In this document: positions 440 through 36,277 of the stretch, one piece after another
Numbering within the stretch: position 1 is the stretch's first letter
Layout: every line of letters starts with the position of its first letter
DNA from: Victivallales bacterium
Lineage (GTDB): Bacteria; Verrucomicrobiota; Lentisphaeria; Oligosphaerales; Oligosphaeraceae
Direction: 5' to 3'
NCBI GenBank assembly: GCA_017535315.1
Contig: JAFXUD010000096.1
Coordinates: forward strand, 1 to 36,277
DNA length: 36,277 nucleotides
Notes under the pieces: generated by a model
What the model was told of the DNA's origin: nothing
Database searches by the model: none
Seen by the model: the letters and a program-made list of their open reading frames with translations, nothing else
Position numbers and translations under genes: made by a program

Positions 440-652
440 TTAAATATCTTGTATAAAATTCATTTTAGCATATTGTGATGGATTGTTTTCATCTTTTACA
501 ATCTGTATTTCGACTTTTTCAAGCGCATTCCATTGTGTAATATTCTGACTAATAGATGCTATTACTTCTATCATTCCATTTTGATTTATCGCCTGTATTC
601 TATTCCATTCATCTTTGGTAAAAGATAACGAGCACACGATTCTTTTAGACAT
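440..652 (-). CDS. Small hypothetical protein (70 aa)
   Basis: I do not recognise this protein. It starts MSKRIVCSLSFTKDEWNRI and is mostly polar, with no signal peptide or membrane segment. The TKDEWNRIQAI stretch looks like a short helix, but the family is unknown. An upstream in-frame Met at 679 gives a longer version. I prefer 652 because the decayed paralogue at 1122-1336 aligns from this ATG and is preceded there by a clean GGAGGTG ribosome site; the equivalent here is the weaker GGATGTG. The gene is AT-rich and lies 3' of a zinc-ribbon gene on the same strand. The existence of a paralogue supports it being a real gene. Confidence 0.6.
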   Translation of the reverse strand: MSKRIVCSLSFTKDEWNRIQAINQNGMIEVIASISQNITQWNALEKVEIQIVKDENNPSQYAKMNFIQDI

Positions 653-803: not shown

Positions 804-998
804 TTACATCTCATCGCGATACCTGACTTGTTTGTAATCAGTGGCCCCGCATACTGGACATTGAGAAGACTGTCCCCAGCCACGCTTTGCTGTCTGGGGA
901 CACGCATAACAGTAAACTTTTCCACATTTTTTGCACTTCAAGATGATAGTACCACTTGTGTCTCCACAATTTGGACAAACTGTAATAATTTCTCTCAT
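804..998 (-). CDS. Small double zinc-ribbon protein (64 aa)
   Basis: Cysteines are arranged in zinc-binding knuckles: CPNC near the N-terminus, CKKC, a CYAC pair, and CPVC near residue 50. This is typical of short bacterial zinc-ribbon proteins that bind nucleic acid or protein. It has no membrane segment and is probably cytosolic. An AAGGAG ribosome site sits about 9 nt before the ATG at 998. It is a paralogue of the protein at 2692-2907: both start (I)xxCPNCG, then CxxCGK-x-x-C-x-x-C, then CP-x-C. It lies between a 70-aa gene and that gene's decayed copy. Metal binding is inferred from the motifs; the function is unknown. Confidence 0.75.
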   Translation of the reverse strand: MREIITVCPNCGDTSGTIILKCKKCGKVYCYACPQTAKRGWGQSSQCPVCGATDYKQVRYRDEM

Positions 999-1403: not shown

Positions 1404-2528
1404 TTATATCTTTGCGAGAAACTGTATTAGGACGAAGATGAGAAGGAAAAATATGGTGAATAATAACAGTAACTTAAAACAACCAACGCCCCGCCTACGT
1501 TTAATTTTGATGTGAGGTGCAAAGAACGCTTTTTCCCCAATAGTCGTTTCTTTAGGCACCGTTACGTGTTTGAGTTTTGTGCAATTATAAAACGCTCTTT
1601 CGTCAATGACGCTTACACTATCGGGAATCCGTATGCTGGTCAGGCCCGTGCAATTTTCAAATGCGCTTGCGCCAATGTTCGTCACACTATTGGGTAGCTT
1701 AATGCTGGTCAGACCCGTGCAGCCCTCAAATGCGCTTTCGCCAATGTTCGTCACACTGTTTGGAATCTTAATGCTGGTAAGGCCTGTGCAGTTTTGAAAT
1801 GCCCCAAAGTCAATTGTCGTGACATGTTTGGGAATTTCAATGCTGGTCAGGCCCGTACACCCGAAAAATGTACAGTCGCCAATGCTCGTCACACTGTTGG
1901 GAATCTTAATGCTGGTCAGGCTCGTGCACCCCCAAAATGTCCAGTCGCCAATTTTCGTGACATGTTTGGGAATCTCAATACTGGTCAGGCCCTTGCAGCT
2001 TTCAAATGCGTGTTCGCCAATCTTCGTCACACTGTTGGGAATCTTAATGCTGGTCAGGCCCGTGCAGAGTTCAAATGCGCTTTCGCCAATCTTCGTCACA
2101 CTGTTGGGAATCTTAATGCTGGTCAGGCTCGTGCACCCCCAAAATGTCCAGTCGCCAGTTTTCGTGACATGTTTGGGAATCTTAATGCTGGTCAGGCCCG
2201 TGCAGCGTTTAAATGCATAAGAGCCAATTTCCTTCACACTGTTGGGAATCTTAATGCTGGTCAGGCCCGTGCAGCCCCCAAATGCCCCAGAGCCAATTTC
2301 CATCACACTGTTGGGAAGCTCAATGTTGGTCAGCCCCGTGCAGCCTGCAAATGCTTGCTTGCCGATTACCATCACACTATCGGGAATAATGACACGTATC
2401 AGGTTGGTGCAGTCTTCAAACACGTTGTTACGGATTTCCGTAACACCATTTTCAATTTCAACTTCTGTCACCTCCTTACTGCAACGCGTTGTAATGGCTG
2501 TGCCAATGTCTGGACCGATTCTTGTCAT
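1404..2528 (-). CDS. BspA-like leucine-rich repeat protein with C-terminal membrane tail
   Basis: The 374-aa protein is almost entirely made of about 13 consecutive 23-residue LRR_5/BspA-type repeats with consensus LTSIKIPNSVTKIGxxAFxxC. These form a leucine-rich-repeat solenoid. In known families it is usually surface-exposed and mediates binding to proteins or host matrix. The C-terminus has a basic stretch (KIKRRRG) followed by a strongly hydrophobic segment (about residues 348-372) and then only a few residues, like a tail anchor. No N-terminal signal peptide is seen. The ATG at 2528 is preceded by GAAGG at 5 nt. The reading frame stays open about 34 codons further upstream without an ATG, GTG or TTG start. 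Repeats are near-identical at DNA level (69-bp units), so copy number may vary by recombination. Confidence 0.85.
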   Translation of the reverse strand: MTRIGPDIGTAITTRCSKEVTEVEIENGVTEIRNNVFEDCTNLIRVIIPDSVMVIGKQAFAGCTGLTNIELPNSVMEIGSGAFGGCTGLTSIKIPNSVKEIGSYAFKRCTGLTSIKIPKHVTKTGDWTFWGCTSLTSIKIPNSVTKIGESAFELCTGLTSIKIPNSVTKIGEHAFESCKGLTSIEIPKHVTKIGDWTFWGCTSLTSIKIPNSVTSIGDCTFFGCTGLTSIEIPKHVTTIDFGAFQNCTGLTSIKIPNSVTNIGESAFEGCTGLTSIKLPNSVTNIGASAFENCTGLTSIRIPDSVSVIDERAFYNCTKLKHVTVPKETTIGEKAFFAPHIKIKRRRGVGCFKLLLLFTIFFLLIFVLIQFLAKI

Positions 2529-2691: not shown

Positions 2692-2907
2692 TTATTGAAT
2701 AGTTCTTTTCATAATGTCATATATCATTGATATGTCACTGACCGACTTCCAATTTAAGCTTCTGCATCTTGGACAAACTTCTGAATGAGGCAACGGATGC
2801 TTGTTGTTCCTATCGCACTCGCTGCACCATATCTTTCCACACTCGTTGCAGACTCTCAATGTAGTTATGTTCTTCTCGCCGCAGTTTGGGCATATTACCA
2901 TCGCCAT
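2692..2907 (-). CDS. Small zinc-ribbon protein, paralogue of 804-998 (71 aa)
   Basis: The sequence starts MAMVICPNCGEKNITTLRVC and contains CPNC, CNEC, CSEC and CPRC knuckles, so it can bind two zinc ions. The spacing matches the 804-998 protein in the first half, after which the two diverge. The C-terminal tail (about 20 residues) has no cysteines. An AGGAG ribosome site lies 8 nt before the ATG at 2907, which favours this start over the in-frame Met at 2940. A promoter-like cassette at 3104-3139 sits about 200 bp upstream, implying a long leader. The function is unknown; the family is typically regulatory or nucleic-acid-associated. Confidence 0.75.
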   Translation of the reverse strand: MAMVICPNCGEKNITTLRVCNECGKIWCSECDRNNKHPLPHSEVCPRCRSLNWKSVSDISMIYDIMKRTIQ

Positions 2908-3103
2908 CGTAATGTCTCCTATATTACAAAACCAAATCAATATATGTCTTTATTAATGTACAAACTGAACGATTTATGGACTCATGTTTTCTCTCTGTGG
3001 TTGAGAGAAGCAAAGAATGATTGTATGATTATCAACTCTTTGCGTTGAACCAGACCCGTCTAAAAAGACTTGCTCTGTACAAAAACAAAAGTTCATTCAA
3101 TTT

Positions 3104-3139
3104 ATATAACTATTGTCTAAAAAAAACAAAACCTGTCAT
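3104..3139 (-). promoter_or_regulatory. Shared promoter-like cassette, copy 1
   Basis: Read on the minus strand: ATGACA (3134-3139), a 16-bp spacer, GACAAT (3112-3117), then AGTTATAT. A GCAGAAAAA tract lies just upstream. The same layout occurs at 4223-4250 and 5208-5236. Assigning these boxes as -35 and -10 is inference. Confidence 0.5.
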
Positions 3140-3210
3140 AAAACTGACGTTTTTCTGCAAAACGTGCTTTTTTGTTATTGAAAACAATACGCCTGTTTTC
3201 CAATGGTAGG

Positions 3211-4158
3211 TCACGGCAACGGTCTTGCCGTCTCTGTCTTGACTGTATTTGCTATTTCCGTCGGGCAGTTGGCAAAAAACAAATCGGGGGCTAGCGCAGC
3301 TAATTCACGCAAGTCCTGAAGAGGGAGGTTTCCCCATGGGACGTACTTGATGAGCTGGCTCTGCGTCTGAAGCAATTCTCCCCACTCCTTGCCATTCAGT
3401 TTTTCCCATGGGCATAGATAGAAGAACAAGGGATGTTTCTCAAGCAAGCGGCTCCAGTTCTCACCATTCAGCTTCTCCCATGAACAAATCCCTGCATAGT
3501 GAGGTTTCTCTCGAAGCAATGAACTCCAATCCTTTCCATCCAGCTTCTCCCAGGCGCACTTGTCGGAAAAGAAGAGTTCCTCCTTTTTAAGCAGATTAAC
3601 CCAATCCTCGCCATCCAGCTTCTCCCAGGCGCACTTGTGGGAAAAGAGGAATCCTTCACTTTCAAGCAGATAAATCCAATCCTTGCCATCCAGCTTTTCC
3701 CAAGCGCATTTGTAGGCGAACTGTGGCATAATCGCAATCAATTCCGCCCATTCAAAACCATCAAATATATCCCATGGGCAGAGGGCGGCGAACTGGGGTT
3801 GTTCCTCAAGCAAGCACAGCCAAGTCCTTCCAGGAAGAGTTTTGAGGTCATTCAATGGACATTTTTCGACAAGCTGTGGATAAGAGCAAAGCACTTGCCC
3901 CCAAGCCGCTGGTTCCAGCTTCTTCCAGTTGAAACTATCAACGAAACCAGATGTGACCAATTCGCGCCAAATCTCATCTCCAAAACATCCCCAGGGGCAT
4001 TGGGCTATGTCGGTATCAGGGTTTTGTTTCAGTTTCCGAACCCAGTCAAGAAGTTCCTCATCATCATGACATGTCATTTCTAAATATGCGATTTCCGCTT
4101 CACTGGGAAATTTCCTATGTATCTTCGAATCACTACGATTAGAACTGTCTTCTGCCAT
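3211..4158 (-). CDS. C-x-W repeat solenoid protein (315 aa), unrecognised family
   Basis: After a ~53-residue acidic N-terminal region the protein consists of about ten imperfect repeats of 23-25 residues. The best-conserved unit reads C-A-W-E-K-L-D-G-K-D-W, then about two residues, then LL, a variable stretch often with P and an aromatic, and K before the next Cys. The first three and last two units are degenerate. No signal peptide or membrane segment is present if the start is at 4158, so it is probably cytosolic. That ATG has AAGGAG about 7 nt upstream and lies downstream of a promoter-like cassette (4223-4250). The longer frame starting at 4326 runs through that promoter and is rejected. 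The regular Trp/Leu pattern suggests an alpha-helical solenoid used for protein binding. I cannot name a family. Confidence 0.75.
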   Translation of the reverse strand: MAEDSSNRSDSKIHRKFPSEAEIAYLEMTCHDDEELLDWVRKLKQNPDTDIAQCPWGCFGDEIWRELVTSGFVDSFNWKKLEPAAWGQVLCSYPQLVEKCPLNDLKTLPGRTWLCLLEEQPQFAALCPWDIFDGFEWAELIAIMPQFAYKCAWEKLDGKDWIYLLESEGFLFSHKCAWEKLDGEDWVNLLKKEELFFSDKCAWEKLDGKDWSSLLREKPHYAGICSWEKLNGENWSRLLEKHPLFFYLCPWEKLNGKEWGELLQTQSQLIKYVPWGNLPLQDLRELAALAPDLFFANCPTEIANTVKTETARPLP

Positions 4159-4222
4159 AATTTCTCCTTTGTTTAGGATAATCAATAAATCTTTGCTGCA
4201 TTTGAAGCAAAACCATATAACC

Positions 4223-4250
4223 ATTGTCAATATAAAAACAAACTTGTCAT
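4223..4250 (-). promoter_or_regulatory. Shared promoter-like cassette, copy 2
   Basis: Minus strand ATGACA (4245-4250), 16-bp spacer, GACAAT (4223-4228), followed by GGTTATAT and preceded by CCGCAAAAAA. It lies about 65 bp upstream of the C-x-W repeat gene start at 4158. It closely resembles copy 1 across about 50 bp. Confidence 0.5.
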
Positions 4251-4320
4251 ACAACAAATGTTTTTTGCGGAACTTTCGTGCGGCGAGAGGCGTTGCCAAC
4301 GCCAATGTGTTCATATCGAC

Positions 4321-4353
4321 GCGCATTTCGCGCTAGTTTTGAAATTACCTCAA
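4321..4353 (-). repeat. GAGGTAATTTC repeat (family C)
   Basis: On the minus strand this reads TTGAGGTAATTTCAAAAC, then a short spacer, then CGAAATGCGC. The same ~33-bp sequence recurs at 28437-28471 with few changes. The short core alone recurs at 15470-15480 and 35879-35889. Confidence 0.6.
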
Positions 4354-4380
4354 TAGTCTGTTTTTTGAAGGGTGCGCGTT

Positions 4381-4414
4381 CCCGATGCCACGCGTTTTAA
4401 CGCATGGCATCGGG
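4381..4414. repeat. Strong 16-bp-arm stem-loop
   Basis: The inverted repeat has arms CCCGATGCCACGCGTT and AACGCATGGCATCGGG, with one mismatch and a 2-nt centre. It lies in the 628-bp gene-free stretch between the C-x-W gene start (4158) and the small membrane protein gene stop (4787). No clear U-tract is present on either strand. It could be a REP-like element. Confidence 0.6.
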
Positions 4415-4584
4415 CAACAACTGTTGCGCAATCTGTGCGCTGGTCACTTCGCGGACCATTATTGAGAAGTCAAAATCTATTCTCATTGAAAAGTCTGTGA
4501 GGATTTCAAATAACTACAATTGATTTTTTGGGGGACAACCAGCACCCATCACCTGGACACAAAGCATTTTGGAAACTGCCCCCG

Positions 4585-4740
4585 AAAAAACGTGCCCGTA
4601 AGGGTACCGCATTTTCCCTGGGGTGTAAAGGGCGCGCATTGCGCGCACCAGAGGCGGTTGAGCTCGCTGGTGGCTTGGCATGCGTGGCGCGGAACAGGCC
4701 TGGGGTGTAAAGGGCGCGCTAATGCGCGCCCTTGGCAGCC
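4585..4740 (+). repeat. Family A repeat, copy 2, with terminator-like hairpin
   Basis: This shares the GTGTAAAGGGCGCGC, GCGCGCACCAGAGGCGG and GTGGCGCGGAACAGGC elements with copies 1 and 3. At 4710-4733 it holds a perfect 10-bp stem (AAGGGCGCGC and GCGCGCCCTT) with a TAAT loop. That stem lies about 55 nt beyond the stop of the 4787-5029 gene and could end its transcript. Open frames across it are repeat artefacts. Confidence 0.65.
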
Positions 4741-4786
4741 AGTATTGCATGTTTATATATCAATACAGTATCAAACAAGGTAGGGG

Positions 4787-5029
4787 TTATTTTTGAATCT
4801 GCTCTGTTTTTTCCTTATTTGATTCGTTTGAAGAATTGTTCTTATCAGATGGTTTAGAAAAAACTACATAAAGTATTAAAACAATTAGAATGGTTAGGAT
4901 TAATCTAATAAGCTTTGATAAACATCCCTTACATAAACCACCATCTTTTGTCAACCATCCAAGACCAAAATCATGAAGCGCTCCATCTAATAAAGCACCC
5001 AAACAACCTTTCATTGTTGTCTCTGCCAT
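4787..5029 (-). CDS. Small single-pass membrane protein (80 aa), hypothetical
   Basis: An N-terminal half rich in Gly and Leu with two CxxC-like spacings (GCLGALL and CKGCLSK) is followed by one hydrophobic segment (about residues 40-58, LIRLILTILIVLILYVVF) and a polar Ser/Asn/Lys/Glu tail. It has no cleavable signal peptide, and the topology cannot be assigned with confidence. GGAG lies about 7 nt before the ATG at 5029. A promoter-like cassette at 5208-5236 and a degenerate version near 5048-5076 lie upstream. I do not recognise the family. Its position and shared promoter tie it to the other accessory genes in 800-5030. Confidence 0.6.
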   Translation of the reverse strand: MAETTMKGCLGALLDGALHDFGLGWLTKDGGLCKGCLSKLIRLILTILIVLILYVVFSKPSDKNNSSNESNKEKTEQIQK

Positions 5030-5207
5030 GTTAAATCTCCGTTTATTGTTGTCATTGACTTTTCGATTTCCGCCAAGTACACCTTGCTTTTTTCTGAAAA
5101 AAGGCTTAGTTTTATCAACAATCGTCTTTTAGATTGCTTCGCTCCACCTCGAAGTTTGGAACAGAATATTCAGGTCAAAGAAAATAGTTAACTCAAACTA
5201 TAAAACT

Positions 5208-5236
5208 ATTGTCATCGACCTTTCAATTCCTGTCAA
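5208..5236 (-). promoter_or_regulatory. Shared promoter-like cassette, copy 3
   Basis: Minus strand TTGACA (5231-5236), 17-bp spacer, GACAAT (5208-5213), then AGTTTTATAG, with an A-tract (TTTGAAAAAA) upstream. The TTGACA box is a perfect sigma70 -35 consensus. It lies about 180 bp before the gene at 4787-5029. A weaker copy (TTGGCG, 17 bp, GACAAC) is nearer the gene at 5048-5076. Confidence 0.5.
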
Positions 5237-5309
5237 GCATATCTCTTTTTTCAAAAAAATGTGTTTTTTGCCATATATCCTAAAGAGGGTAGGTAACACA
5301 TCATATTTG

Positions 5310-5490
5310 TTGCGCCCTTCCGATTGGGTGTTTGGCGCAAAAGAATCCCTGGTACGCGCAAACGCGCGCATTCAATCACTTGCCTGTTCCGCGCCACGCT
5401 TGATAGAAGACGGTTCGCGCTATCTCGCGGGGGGATAATAGCGAACAGCAAATCTAAACTTTCCCCAAGAAAATTGAGCGAAGGCCGAGT
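5310..5490 (-). repeat. Family A repeat, copy 3 (inverted)
   Basis: Read on the minus strand it contains GCTGTTCGCTATT, also found at 67-79 on the plus strand, then a CCGCGAG element, GTGGCGCGGAACAGGC (as at 4684) and a GCGCGTACCAGGG variant of the core. The element order is the same as in copies 1 and 2. Confidence 0.6.
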
Positions 5491-5588
5491 AAGCGGCCTA
5501 CCCTGAACTTGTTTTCATGGGGAAGATAGCTATGCAATGTAGCGTACCCATGCGCTGGTAGCGTTGCGGTCGTCCAGCACCCTTGCAC

Positions 5589-5660
5589 AGATATTCAGGA
5601 AAACGACGACTGTTGCCGTTCGACACTTCTTCGCCTACGGCTTCACAAGCCTGAATATCT
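5589..5660 (+). repeat. 11-bp inverted repeat just upstream of the kinase start
   Basis: AGATATTCAGG (5589-5599) is perfectly complementary to CCTGAATATCT (5650-5660), and the second arm ends 5 nt before the kinase ATG. The enclosed 50 bp is GC-rich with a short CGCCTACGGC palindromic part. It could fold over the start region or be a mobile repeat that inserted here. No ribosome site is visible between the arm and the ATG. Confidence 0.55.
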
Positions 5661-5665
5661 TCGAC

Positions 5666-8494
5666 ATGGCAGAAAACTATGACAAGTTCTCTTGCGAAGA
5701 GCTGCAAAAGGTACTAAATTTATGCAAGTGCGACAGGGAGGAACGGCCTTTCACGGATGTTTTGGAAAACGGCAAGCTCATGGGGAAGATAAGCCTCGAC
5801 GCGGCCTCCCCTTCCATTGGGAGCCCAGCAAATGTCAAAATAGCAAGCATGAAAAGTGGTGATACATTCGGCGGGTGCCGCATCCTGTGCGAGAGCGGGA
5901 CAGGTGCGTATGGCACGATTTACCTGGCAAAGGATGCCCTGGAGCGGACTGTCGCCCTCAAGGTGTTCCATACCAAGTGGAACACGACGCATAGGCTGGA
6001 CGGTCTGCGCAAGTACATCTCCAGCTTCAGCGAGACCGAGGGGCTGGTCAGGATGTACCATTTCGGCGTAGAGGATGACCATTTCTTCTATGTGATGGAG
6101 CCCGCCGACAATGCGACACCCGACGGCGCCTATACTGCGGACACCCTGGCGTTGCGTCTGGCCAACGGCAAACGGTTCCCGCTTGAGACATCATTGGAGC
6201 TGTGCGGGAAGCTACTGGATGCCGTCGAGAAACTGCACAGCCTGGAGATGGTCCACCGCGACATCAAGCCAGAAAACATAATATTCGTGGATGGCCGCCC
6301 CAAGCTGGGGGACCTGGACTTTCTCAGCGACTACACCAAAACCATGTCACTGGTTGGCACGATAGGCTACATCCCGCCTGAATACGTTTCGCTTCCCTCC
6401 CTGCCCAAGTCGCCCGCCACTGACCTCTATGCGCTGGGCAAGATATTCTACTGCTGCGTCACGGGCAATCCACCCGATGCCTATCCAAGCCTGCCAAAGG
6501 ATTTGCCGAAGAAGGTGCTCTACAGCGTTTGCCTCCCATTGTCAAGGCTGTGCAACGTGAATCCCGCCGACCGTCCGCGCACCTGTGCAGAGTTCCGCGA
6601 CCTGCTCCCGAACGGTTCAAATGCGACCGCAAAGAAGGGAGCGTGGCATTGGCTTGCATGCCAGCTCGCCCTGCATCCCTCGCTCAAGTATGCGCTGTGG
6701 GTGGGGGCAGTCGTACTGGTTGCTGGGGTGATTTCTGCGGGAGTCATGGGCAGGAACCATCTGCGCCATGTTCGGGAGGCGTGCATTGCGCTGATGCGTG
6801 AAAAGCAGGCGCAAGTGGTAGAGTTGCAGAAGCGGCTGCCTGTGCTTCAGAGGGAGCTTGGCGAAGAGGCTGGCAGCCAGTTGGCAGGGCTGCTGGAGAA
6901 GGCTGCCTCCATCCACTCGGAGAAGGATGCAGAGAAGCTTGCGGCGGTGGTGGCCGACGCGGAGAGCATGCTCTCCAAGGCAGCCGCTGCGCGGCTGCCT
7001 ATTATTACTGGCCTCCTGGAACCCACATACGAGAACGTACTTAAGTTGGGCGAAGCGTTCGGCTTCCTCCATTCGCAACTGGCACGCAGTGCCATGTCTC
7101 AAGAGGAATGGACTGGATTGCAGGAGAGGTTGCTGAAAGAAGCCAAAAGTATCAATCCATATATGACAGTCGGGAAGGACATCTCGCTTGTTTCAGGCAT
7201 CCCCATCCTATATGACTTTGTGCCGCCAGGCAAAACGGAATATCCCTTCTGGATTATGCAGGACGAGGTCATGCAGTCCAGTTTCGTCGAAATCTGCGGC
7301 TATAGGCGCTTCGAATACAGACCCAATGGCGGTAAGCAGACGAATGTCTGCCTGAACGACATGATGATGTGCAGCCGCTCCACACGGAACTACATCGATA
7401 TAAGGTGGCCGTTGCCGCCTGGATATATCGTGCGTCTGCCGACGAAGCGTGAGTTAGAATGGTATTTCGAGTTCAAGGCACAGGGCGGGCTCGGTTATGA
7501 AATCAAACACGATGAAGTGAAGCGTCCTGCCCCGTCTCTGGCTGCATTCCGTGACGACGACCTGACCCAGCTTTGCCGCTATGATGCAAAGGGGAACTAC
7601 GTGAATCTGCGGAAGGACTTGCAGAACAGCGAGCATTACCTCTTCCGTCTCGTCATCGCCCCTGGCGACGAATCATTCTACACACGCGCCTTCACATCAG
7701 GTGTAGAAATGCTTTCCGCCGAAAGAAATGGCAAGGTTTATGCGGGTATTTCCTCCTCCACCACCTCGCAGATTTTTCGCGAGGCCAATTCACTCTGTCA
7801 AGCTGTCAACGCGAAGCTGGTCGAGCCAGCCTCTTTCGCAGAGTGGAAGGAACTCAATAATCTTGTCAATGATTCCCCCTCCTGGTATGCGCTGCTTGGA
7901 GCAAGCTACAAGGATGGCGAATGGAGGTATCTCTCGAATGGCAAGCCACTTGGCTGGAAGGAGCTGCCATCCTATATCGAAGATCACAACTACCTGGCCG
8001 CCGACAACAAACGCTGCATGAGCCTATTGGAAACAAAGAGAACAGGCGTGCTGATTTTCGAGTGGGAGGACCAGGAGCATTGGAAACACCGCGCCGATGC
8101 CTTGAATGGTACAGGCAAGGTGGCGGAGTGCATCACAAAAACCTTCACCGCTGGTGGACACAAGTTCGCAGTACTCAGCACGGACTTCGCCTCCTACACG
8201 GCAGAGCCATTCTGCCGCTACATGGGGCTGAAGCTGGCTGTCATCAAGGACAAAGAGCTGTTGGAGGAGGTTTGTAAACAGTTGGCCGACATCAAGGGCT
8301 ACATCGGTCTCGATGTACACCGCTTCTACGACCGCTGGCGTTCGAGCGACGGCACAATTACAACCTTCTCTCCCCAGCCCGAAAGAGACTTCGCTCGCGA
8401 AGTCCAGTCTATCATGCTTGACAGCCTCGCAATCAGAGACGGCCATCTCGTCAGCACGCCAATCCTGAACCACCTTTTGCTGGAGTGGCCGTAG
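5666..8494 (+). CDS. Hanks-type Ser/Thr kinase with membrane span, FGE-like and C-type-lectin-like modules (942 aa)
   Basis: The kinase domain spans about residues 65-315. It has a glycine loop (ESGTGAYG, 76-83), VALK lysine K99, HRDIKPEN (D199, N204), a DLD motif (216-218) where DFG is usual, GTIGYIPPE (231-239) and a conserved ADRPR arginine. A membrane segment follows at 342-361, then a coiled-coil-like stretch to about 480. The outer part contains an FGE-sulfatase-like region (EVMQSSFVEICG, then GYIVRLPTKRELEWY, ending YLFRLV). After it come a C-type-lectin-like domain (ANSLC...AKLVE...WYALLGA...ILFEWE in outline) and a second weaker one at the C-terminus. The likely role is a transmembrane sensor kinase. 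I start at 5666 because upstream in-frame sequence is repeat-derived; no good ribosome site is seen. It is convergent with lepB. Confidence 0.85.
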   Translation: MAENYDKFSCEELQKVLNLCKCDREERPFTDVLENGKLMGKISLDAASPSIGSPANVKIASMKSGDTFGGCRILCESGTGAYGTIYLAKDALERTVALKVFHTKWNTTHRLDGLRKYISSFSETEGLVRMYHFGVEDDHFFYVMEPADNATPDGAYTADTLALRLANGKRFPLETSLELCGKLLDAVEKLHSLEMVHRDIKPENIIFVDGRPKLGDLDFLSDYTKTMSLVGTIGYIPPEYVSLPSLPKSPATDLYALGKIFYCCVTGNPPDAYPSLPKDLPKKVLYSVCLPLSRLCNVNPADRPRTCAEFRDLLPNGSNATAKKGAWHWLACQLALHPSLKYALWVGAVVLVAGVISAGVMGRNHLRHVREACIALMREKQAQVVELQKRLPVLQRELGEEAGSQLAGLLEKAASIHSEKDAEKLAAVVADAESMLSKAAAARLPIITGLLEPTYENVLKLGEAFGFLHSQLARSAMSQEEWTGLQERLLKEAKSINPYMTVGKDISLVSGIPILYDFVPPGKTEYPFWIMQDEVMQSSFVEICGYRRFEYRPNGGKQTNVCLNDMMMCSRSTRNYIDIRWPLPPGYIVRLPTKRELEWYFEFKAQGGLGYEIKHDEVKRPAPSLAAFRDDDLTQLCRYDAKGNYVNLRKDLQNSEHYLFRLVIAPGDESFYTRAFTSGVEMLSAERNGKVYAGISSSTTSQIFREANSLCQAVNAKLVEPASFAEWKELNNLVNDSPSWYALLGASYKDGEWRYLSNGKPLGWKELPSYIEDHNYLAADNKRCMSLLETKRTGVLIFEWEDQEHWKHRADALNGTGKVAECITKTFTAGGHKFAVLSTDFASYTAEPFCRYMGLKLAVIKDKELLEEVCKQLADIKGYIGLDVHRFYDRWRSSDGTITTFSPQPERDFAREVQSIMLDSLAIRDGHLVSTPILNHLLLEWP

Positions 8495-36169: not shown

Positions 36170-36180
36170 GTGAAAGGGAG

Positions 36181-36277
36181 GTTGGCGACGCGCTACTTTC
36201 CCGCGCTCCTGGGCGCAGTATCATCGCCGCGCGGGCCCTTAACGGCCGTGTTCGGGATGGGAACGGGTGTTTCAGCC
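36181..36277 (-). rRNA. rrf: 5S ribosomal RNA (3' part, cut by window edge)
   Basis: The minus strand contains the universally conserved 5S core GAAACACCCGTTCCCATCCC, then GAACACGGCCGTTAAG, and later GGGAAAGTAGCGCGTCGCCA. These are the loop A/helix III region and the loop D/helix IV region ending at the 3' end near 36181. About 97 nt are present; the first ~15-20 nt lie beyond 36277. The terminator follows directly, so 5S is the last gene of an rRNA operon that continues outside the window. Confidence 0.93.

Follow-up and report, generated by a model that had tools for sequence, protein, structure and literature searches.

How do neighbouring genes of different families come to stand behind nearly the same upstream sequence? 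This question is raised by the left end of the window (i.e., the whole stretch of 36,277 nucleotides analysed here, which is contig C43 of a 4.9-Mb source genome in 96 contigs), where a sequence-only reading had noticed one repeated layout before three accessory genes and had proposed a shared promoter, possibly served by an unusual sigma factor.

A promoter-like cassette before unrelated genes

From position 1 to about 5570, the GC content is 0.40-0.48, versus mostly 0.50-0.60 to the right, which delimits an A+T-richer island. The small accessory genes it holds are encoded on the minus strand:

4787-5029, minus strand: SMP, a small membrane protein of 80 amino acids
3211-4158, minus strand: C-x-W repeat protein of 315 amino acids (start at 4158, with GGAG before the start)
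2692-2907, minus strand: ZR2, a 71-amino-acid zinc-ribbon protein with four CxxC
1404-2528, minus strand: BspA-type LRR protein, without a cassette copy of its own
804-998, minus strand: ZR1, a zinc ribbon and paralogue of ZR2 (35% identity)
440-652, minus strand: ORF of 70 amino acids

Scans of the island genes against Pfam and other collections gave the ZR2, C-x-W and SMP products no family in common. No integrase was found among the inspected island ORFs, and the contig end cuts the island. A kinase gene occupies 5564-8494. At the other side of the window, a 5S rRNA gene (36180-36277) is truncated by the right contig end. The sole 16S rRNA match (G000:C30:34-990, L087) covers the whole model in 957 bases and seems to be without a large internal part, possibly through an assembly fault.

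On the minus strand, TGACA-N16/17-GACAATRGTTWTAT occurs at 3104-3138, 4215-4249 and 5200-5235, preceding the ZR2, C-x-W and SMP genes, respectively. These sites belong to cassettes of about 60-75 bases with the look of an ordinary bacterial promoter, and a decayed fourth copy lies proximal to the SMP gene:

3094-3166, minus strand: cassette copy 1, before ZR2; A-tract at about 3155-3148, ATGACA 3139-3134, spacer of 16, GACAAT 3117-3112, AGTTATAT 3111-3104
4205-4277, minus strand: cassette copy 2, before the C-x-W gene; A-tract at about 4268-4260, ATGACA 4250-4245, spacer of 16, GACAAT 4228-4223, GGTTATAT 4222-4215
5190-5263, minus strand: cassette copy 3 (distal), before the SMP gene; A-tract at about 5252-5245, TTGACA 5236-5231, spacer of 17, GACAAT 5213-5208, AGTTTTAT 5207-5200
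5040-5103, minus strand: decayed copy 4 (proximal, SMP gene), downstream block lost; TTGGCG 5076-5071, spacer of 17, GACAAC 5053-5048

In every copy, an A-tract stands some 10-14 bases upstream, and all copies lie directly upstream of a gene and in its orientation, with a leader of about 200 nt between cassette and gene in the case of ZR2. The proximal SMP copy, which has neither the -35 consensus nor the downstream block, is probably redundant.

Likeness and proposed descent of the copies

Upstream regions were compared by local alignment, the chance level being set by 300 dinucleotide shuffles. The ZR2 and C-x-W regions aligned with a score of 51 and the distal and proximal SMP copies with a score of 41, in each case above the shuffle maximum of 28 (n=300). 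Both the repeated layout, with its coordinates and boxes, and the degenerate copy proposed at 5048-5076 (TTGGCG-17-GACAAC) are borne out. The ZR2-SMP score of 36 was equalled in 1/300 shuffles and the C-x-W-SMP score of 25 in 12/300, the latter being weak taken alone; what links these two copies is chiefly ZR2, together with how rare the composite motif is. Weaker elements had also been suggested near the LRR and ZR1 genes, and these do not rise clearly above chance: against the three cassettes, 72-253 of 300 shuffles did as well as the LRR upstream region, and the likeness of ZR1 to SMP is marginal (7/300 shuffles). The LRR gene lacks the element, and so, probably, does the ZR1 gene; the LRR gene may be transcribed by read-through from ZR2.

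Regarding the origin of this likeness, the identity of aligned copies was counted per segment (-35, spacer, -10 and flanks). Between the C-x-W and distal SMP copies, the -35 box is kept at 5/6 positions and the -10 box at 6/6, with only 3/16 in the spacer. By contrast, the spacers of ZR2 and C-x-W agree at 10/16 positions ungapped, and at more with gaps, and those of the distal and proximal SMP copies at 13/17. Sigma-factor recognition needs no spacer likeness. Since the spacers are nevertheless alike within pairs, common descent is the better reading, and hexamers conserved where spacers have diverged indicate that the hexamers are held by function. ZR2 resembles the distal SMP copy on its downstream side (24/32) and C-x-W on its upstream side, a mixed likeness that is at most suggestive of recombination between copies. 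Local duplication with shared ancestry explains these patterns better than a common recognition factor does. The cassettes are probably paralogues that go back to a single ancestral promoter region of the sigma-70 type, multiplied by local duplication in the island.

Proposed promoter type and occurrence of the cassette

The cassettes carry what defines a sigma-70-type promoter, i.e., TTGACA-like and TATAAT-like hexamers with 16-18 bases between them. Indeed, in a promoter scan the SMP cassette matched the sigma-70 consensus at 10/12 positions and those of C-x-W and ZR2 at 9/12, with a spacing of 16-17 nt. In about 100 kb of non-ORF DNA of this genome, the combination of TTGACA (with at most one mismatch) and a TAnnnT behind it has its peak at a spacing of 16, with 35 occurrences versus about 17 for the remaining spacings. 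The promoters used by the host appear to be canonical, and among them GACAAT, being without the usual first T of the -10 box, would be a weak -10. GACAAT is nonetheless our candidate for this box, a TATA nine bases downstream being the less likely alternative; for SMP, the alternative TTGAAA-18-TATAGT also matches sigma-70 at 10/12 positions.

Two further readings of the boxes were rejected. GACAAT as a general promoter box of the lineage is not favoured, as it follows TTGACA twice in the same 100 kb versus 0.5 times expected, which is no clear enrichment. A coding reading of the cassette fails on the ZR2 and SMP copies, which hit stops in the matching frame; in the C-x-W copy, the reading frame is open upstream to 4326.

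Searched across the genome, TGACA-N16/18-GACAATNGTTNTAT gave three matches in 4.9 Mb, all at this locus and spanning 2.1 kb, with none for the controls; among 98 relatives it gave no match. That all copies lie within 2.1 kb argues for local duplication rather than dispersal. A profile of 73 positions built from the three copies recovered them at E <= 3e-14, the next match in the genome standing at E = 0.14 and the best in 59 relatives at E = 0.013. The weak profile matches at contigs C95, C77 and C1 adjoin genes unrelated to those of the island. A stricter pattern had no match in viral contigs; in 257 Gb of genomes it had four, of which three fall within ORFs, and this is about the chance expectation. 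The motif matches are neither scattered nor placed before housekeeping genes, either of which would have spoken against the sequence-only reading. The motif was also looked for at the fetched loci of C-x-W relatives and is absent from them. With its promoter layout, its exclusivity genome-wide and its hexamers kept while spacers diverged, the cassette does answer to the description of a promoter element that several genes without homology have in common.

A genome-wide regulon was rejected, since exact, two-mismatch and profile searches yielded no further noteworthy sites. Because the boxes match sigma-70 at 9-10 of 12 positions and such a regulon is missing, and with the canonical TTGACA-16-TAnnnT peak in the genome, the proposal of an unusual sigma factor finds no support. 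In a related explanation, a dedicated regulator or an alternative sigma factor would bind the cassette and control the three genes together as a small unit. The operator would then consist of RGTTWTAT and a direct repeat of TGACA at a distance of 22-23 bases, or about two helical turns. The conservation does continue past the -10 hexamer to the end of RGTTWTAT, three copies contain GACA twice at a similar distance, and the hexamers are kept despite spacer divergence. We regard this explanation as unlikely, however: no further site exists in the genome or in the 98 relatives, neither a regulator nor a sigma factor was suggested when the island genes were scanned with Pfam, NCBIfam and PADLOC, the boxes are compatible with sigma-70, and a binding site leaves the spacer likeness within pairs unexplained.

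Repeats around the cassettes

The island is rich in repeats, two of which lie beside cassettes:

4272-4351, minus strand: left half of a MITE, which breaks off close to the middle of the palindrome and has cassette copy 2 immediately next to it
5283-5329, minus strand: dispersed repeat, 96% identical to G000:C88:15576-15623; about 20 bases separate its end from cassette copy 3

The MITE family is 154 bp long and near-palindromic, with the terminal repeat GAGGTAATTTCAAAACTA and about 40 copies in the genome, most of them full length (e.g., L079:5132-5285) and many with matching 4-bp flanks (target-site duplication). Genes may have entered behind the cassette, or it may be the MITE that landed next to it. 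Elsewhere in the island, a 244-nt stretch is duplicated at 86% identity (426-666 and 1109-1351), and inverted repeats at 18-78 and 5437-5498 (79% over 62 bases), near both island ends, could mark its borders; together they indicate that the island is much rearranged. As further local duplications, the ZR1/ZR2 paralogues and the 244-nt repeat count in favour of the duplication explanation, and so do the half-MITE and the second repeat next to cassettes. The copy at 426-666 holds the 70-amino-acid ORF, and that at 1109-1351 looks decayed. Non-coding parts of the island also contain GC-rich repeats of the GTGTAAAGGGCGCGC type (92-266 and 4616-4729).

With such surroundings, the cassette could be the margin of a repeat that transposes or recombines, its promoter likeness being incidental or secondary. 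Copies 2 and 3 do adjoin dispersed repeats, copy 2 directly at the half-MITE, and a T-run/A-run inverted repeat stands at the upstream edge in 3/4 copies. We nevertheless hold this to be quite improbable, as each copy directly precedes a gene and points the same way, the genome has no cassette copy elsewhere (versus about 40 for the MITE), and the hexamers are the best conserved part. An invertible (phase-variable) promoter would have inverted repeats on its two sides; those seen at the cassette are weak and imperfect. Chance likeness is hardly credible: the upstream stretches are A+T-rich and the C-x-W-SMP alignment alone is equalled in 12/300 shuffles, but chance is refuted for the ZR2-C-x-W and SMP pairs by their scores, and the exact composite motif, present three times in 2.1 kb, is otherwise absent from 4.9 Mb.

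Gene products and their relatives

C-x-W repeat proteins are found in 19/99 genomes, the own genome counted, with a patchy distribution across the class and a best identity of 49% outside the own genome. In the protein of the window, the repeats measure about 24-25 residues each, and structure prediction gives a confident alpha-solenoid (mean pLDDT 83) for which no solved structure was matched at E <= 0.001. DUF285 matches occur in 3/6 aligned family members. ZR2 has weak relatives only, and SMP a single marginal one (E = 0.008) in the 98 related genomes. A phage or plasmid origin was rejected, no C-x-W relatives being found in phage or plasmid records; viral contigs contained no relatives of C-x-W or ZR2. 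The LRR protein passes TIGR02167 (PARCEL repeat surface protein) with 64 bits for a cut-off of 30, and horizontal spread has been described for PARCEL repeats (PMC2996958).

Comparison with known systems

Among known systems, the locus is most like published promoter reuse and mobile promoters, but it is local. Putative mobile promoters and promoter propagation were reportedly described by Matus-Garcia, Nijveen and van Passel in 2012 (doi 10.1093/nar/gks787). In these, genes of one genome that are not homologous are preceded by promoter-like sequences that are (PMC8049555). The cassette shares with them a homologous promoter before non-homologous genes; they are dispersed, whereas its copies all lie within 2.1 kb. 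Promoter-carrying MITEs, of which the neisserial Correia element is one, can provide adjacent genes with sigma-70-like promoters (PMC10969869). Here too, short repeats are present and a MITE stands directly beside copy 2, but cassette and MITE are distinct, and the cassette shows no terminal inverted repeats, target-site duplication or dispersal. Upstream regions can also change between strains at orthologous genes, which is described as regulatory switching. This term appears in PMC5890482 and PMC9944727. In both cases, an upstream region changes on its own, apart from the gene that follows it, but the cassette differs in concerning neighbouring unrelated genes of one genome.

Proposed origin and meaning

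In the duplication explanation, the ancestral unit would have comprised an A-tract, TTGACA or ATGACA, 16-17 bases, GACAAT and a conserved start region. Within the accessory island and its many repeats, this unit would have been multiplied by local duplication and by recombination, which would have placed different genes behind one common promoter. The housekeeping sigma-70 holoenzyme would then read the copies, with GACAAT or, less likely, TATA as -10, and similar basal expression of the three genes would result. From sequence, we infer promoter activity, the sigma factor, start sites and shared expression, as well as the order and mechanism of the duplications; shared expression of the three genes is plausible, and their co-regulation as one system, as the sequence-only reading suggested, is conjectural. 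No duplication breakpoint was resolved on both sides, and the island sits at a contig end.

There is also a small chance that the island is a promoter-plus-gene capture site, in which promoter and unrelated accessory gene would enter or be swapped together as a module, the breaks falling at repeats like the half-MITE. If this were true, incoming genes would be expressed at once from the common promoter.

As the probable product of local duplication, the cassette calls for no new sigma factor or regulatory system. It would be a clear case, confined to one locus, in which accessory genes that are not related have one promoter by descent, next to a broken MITE, and it illustrates how a genome might come to express genes that it has newly acquired.
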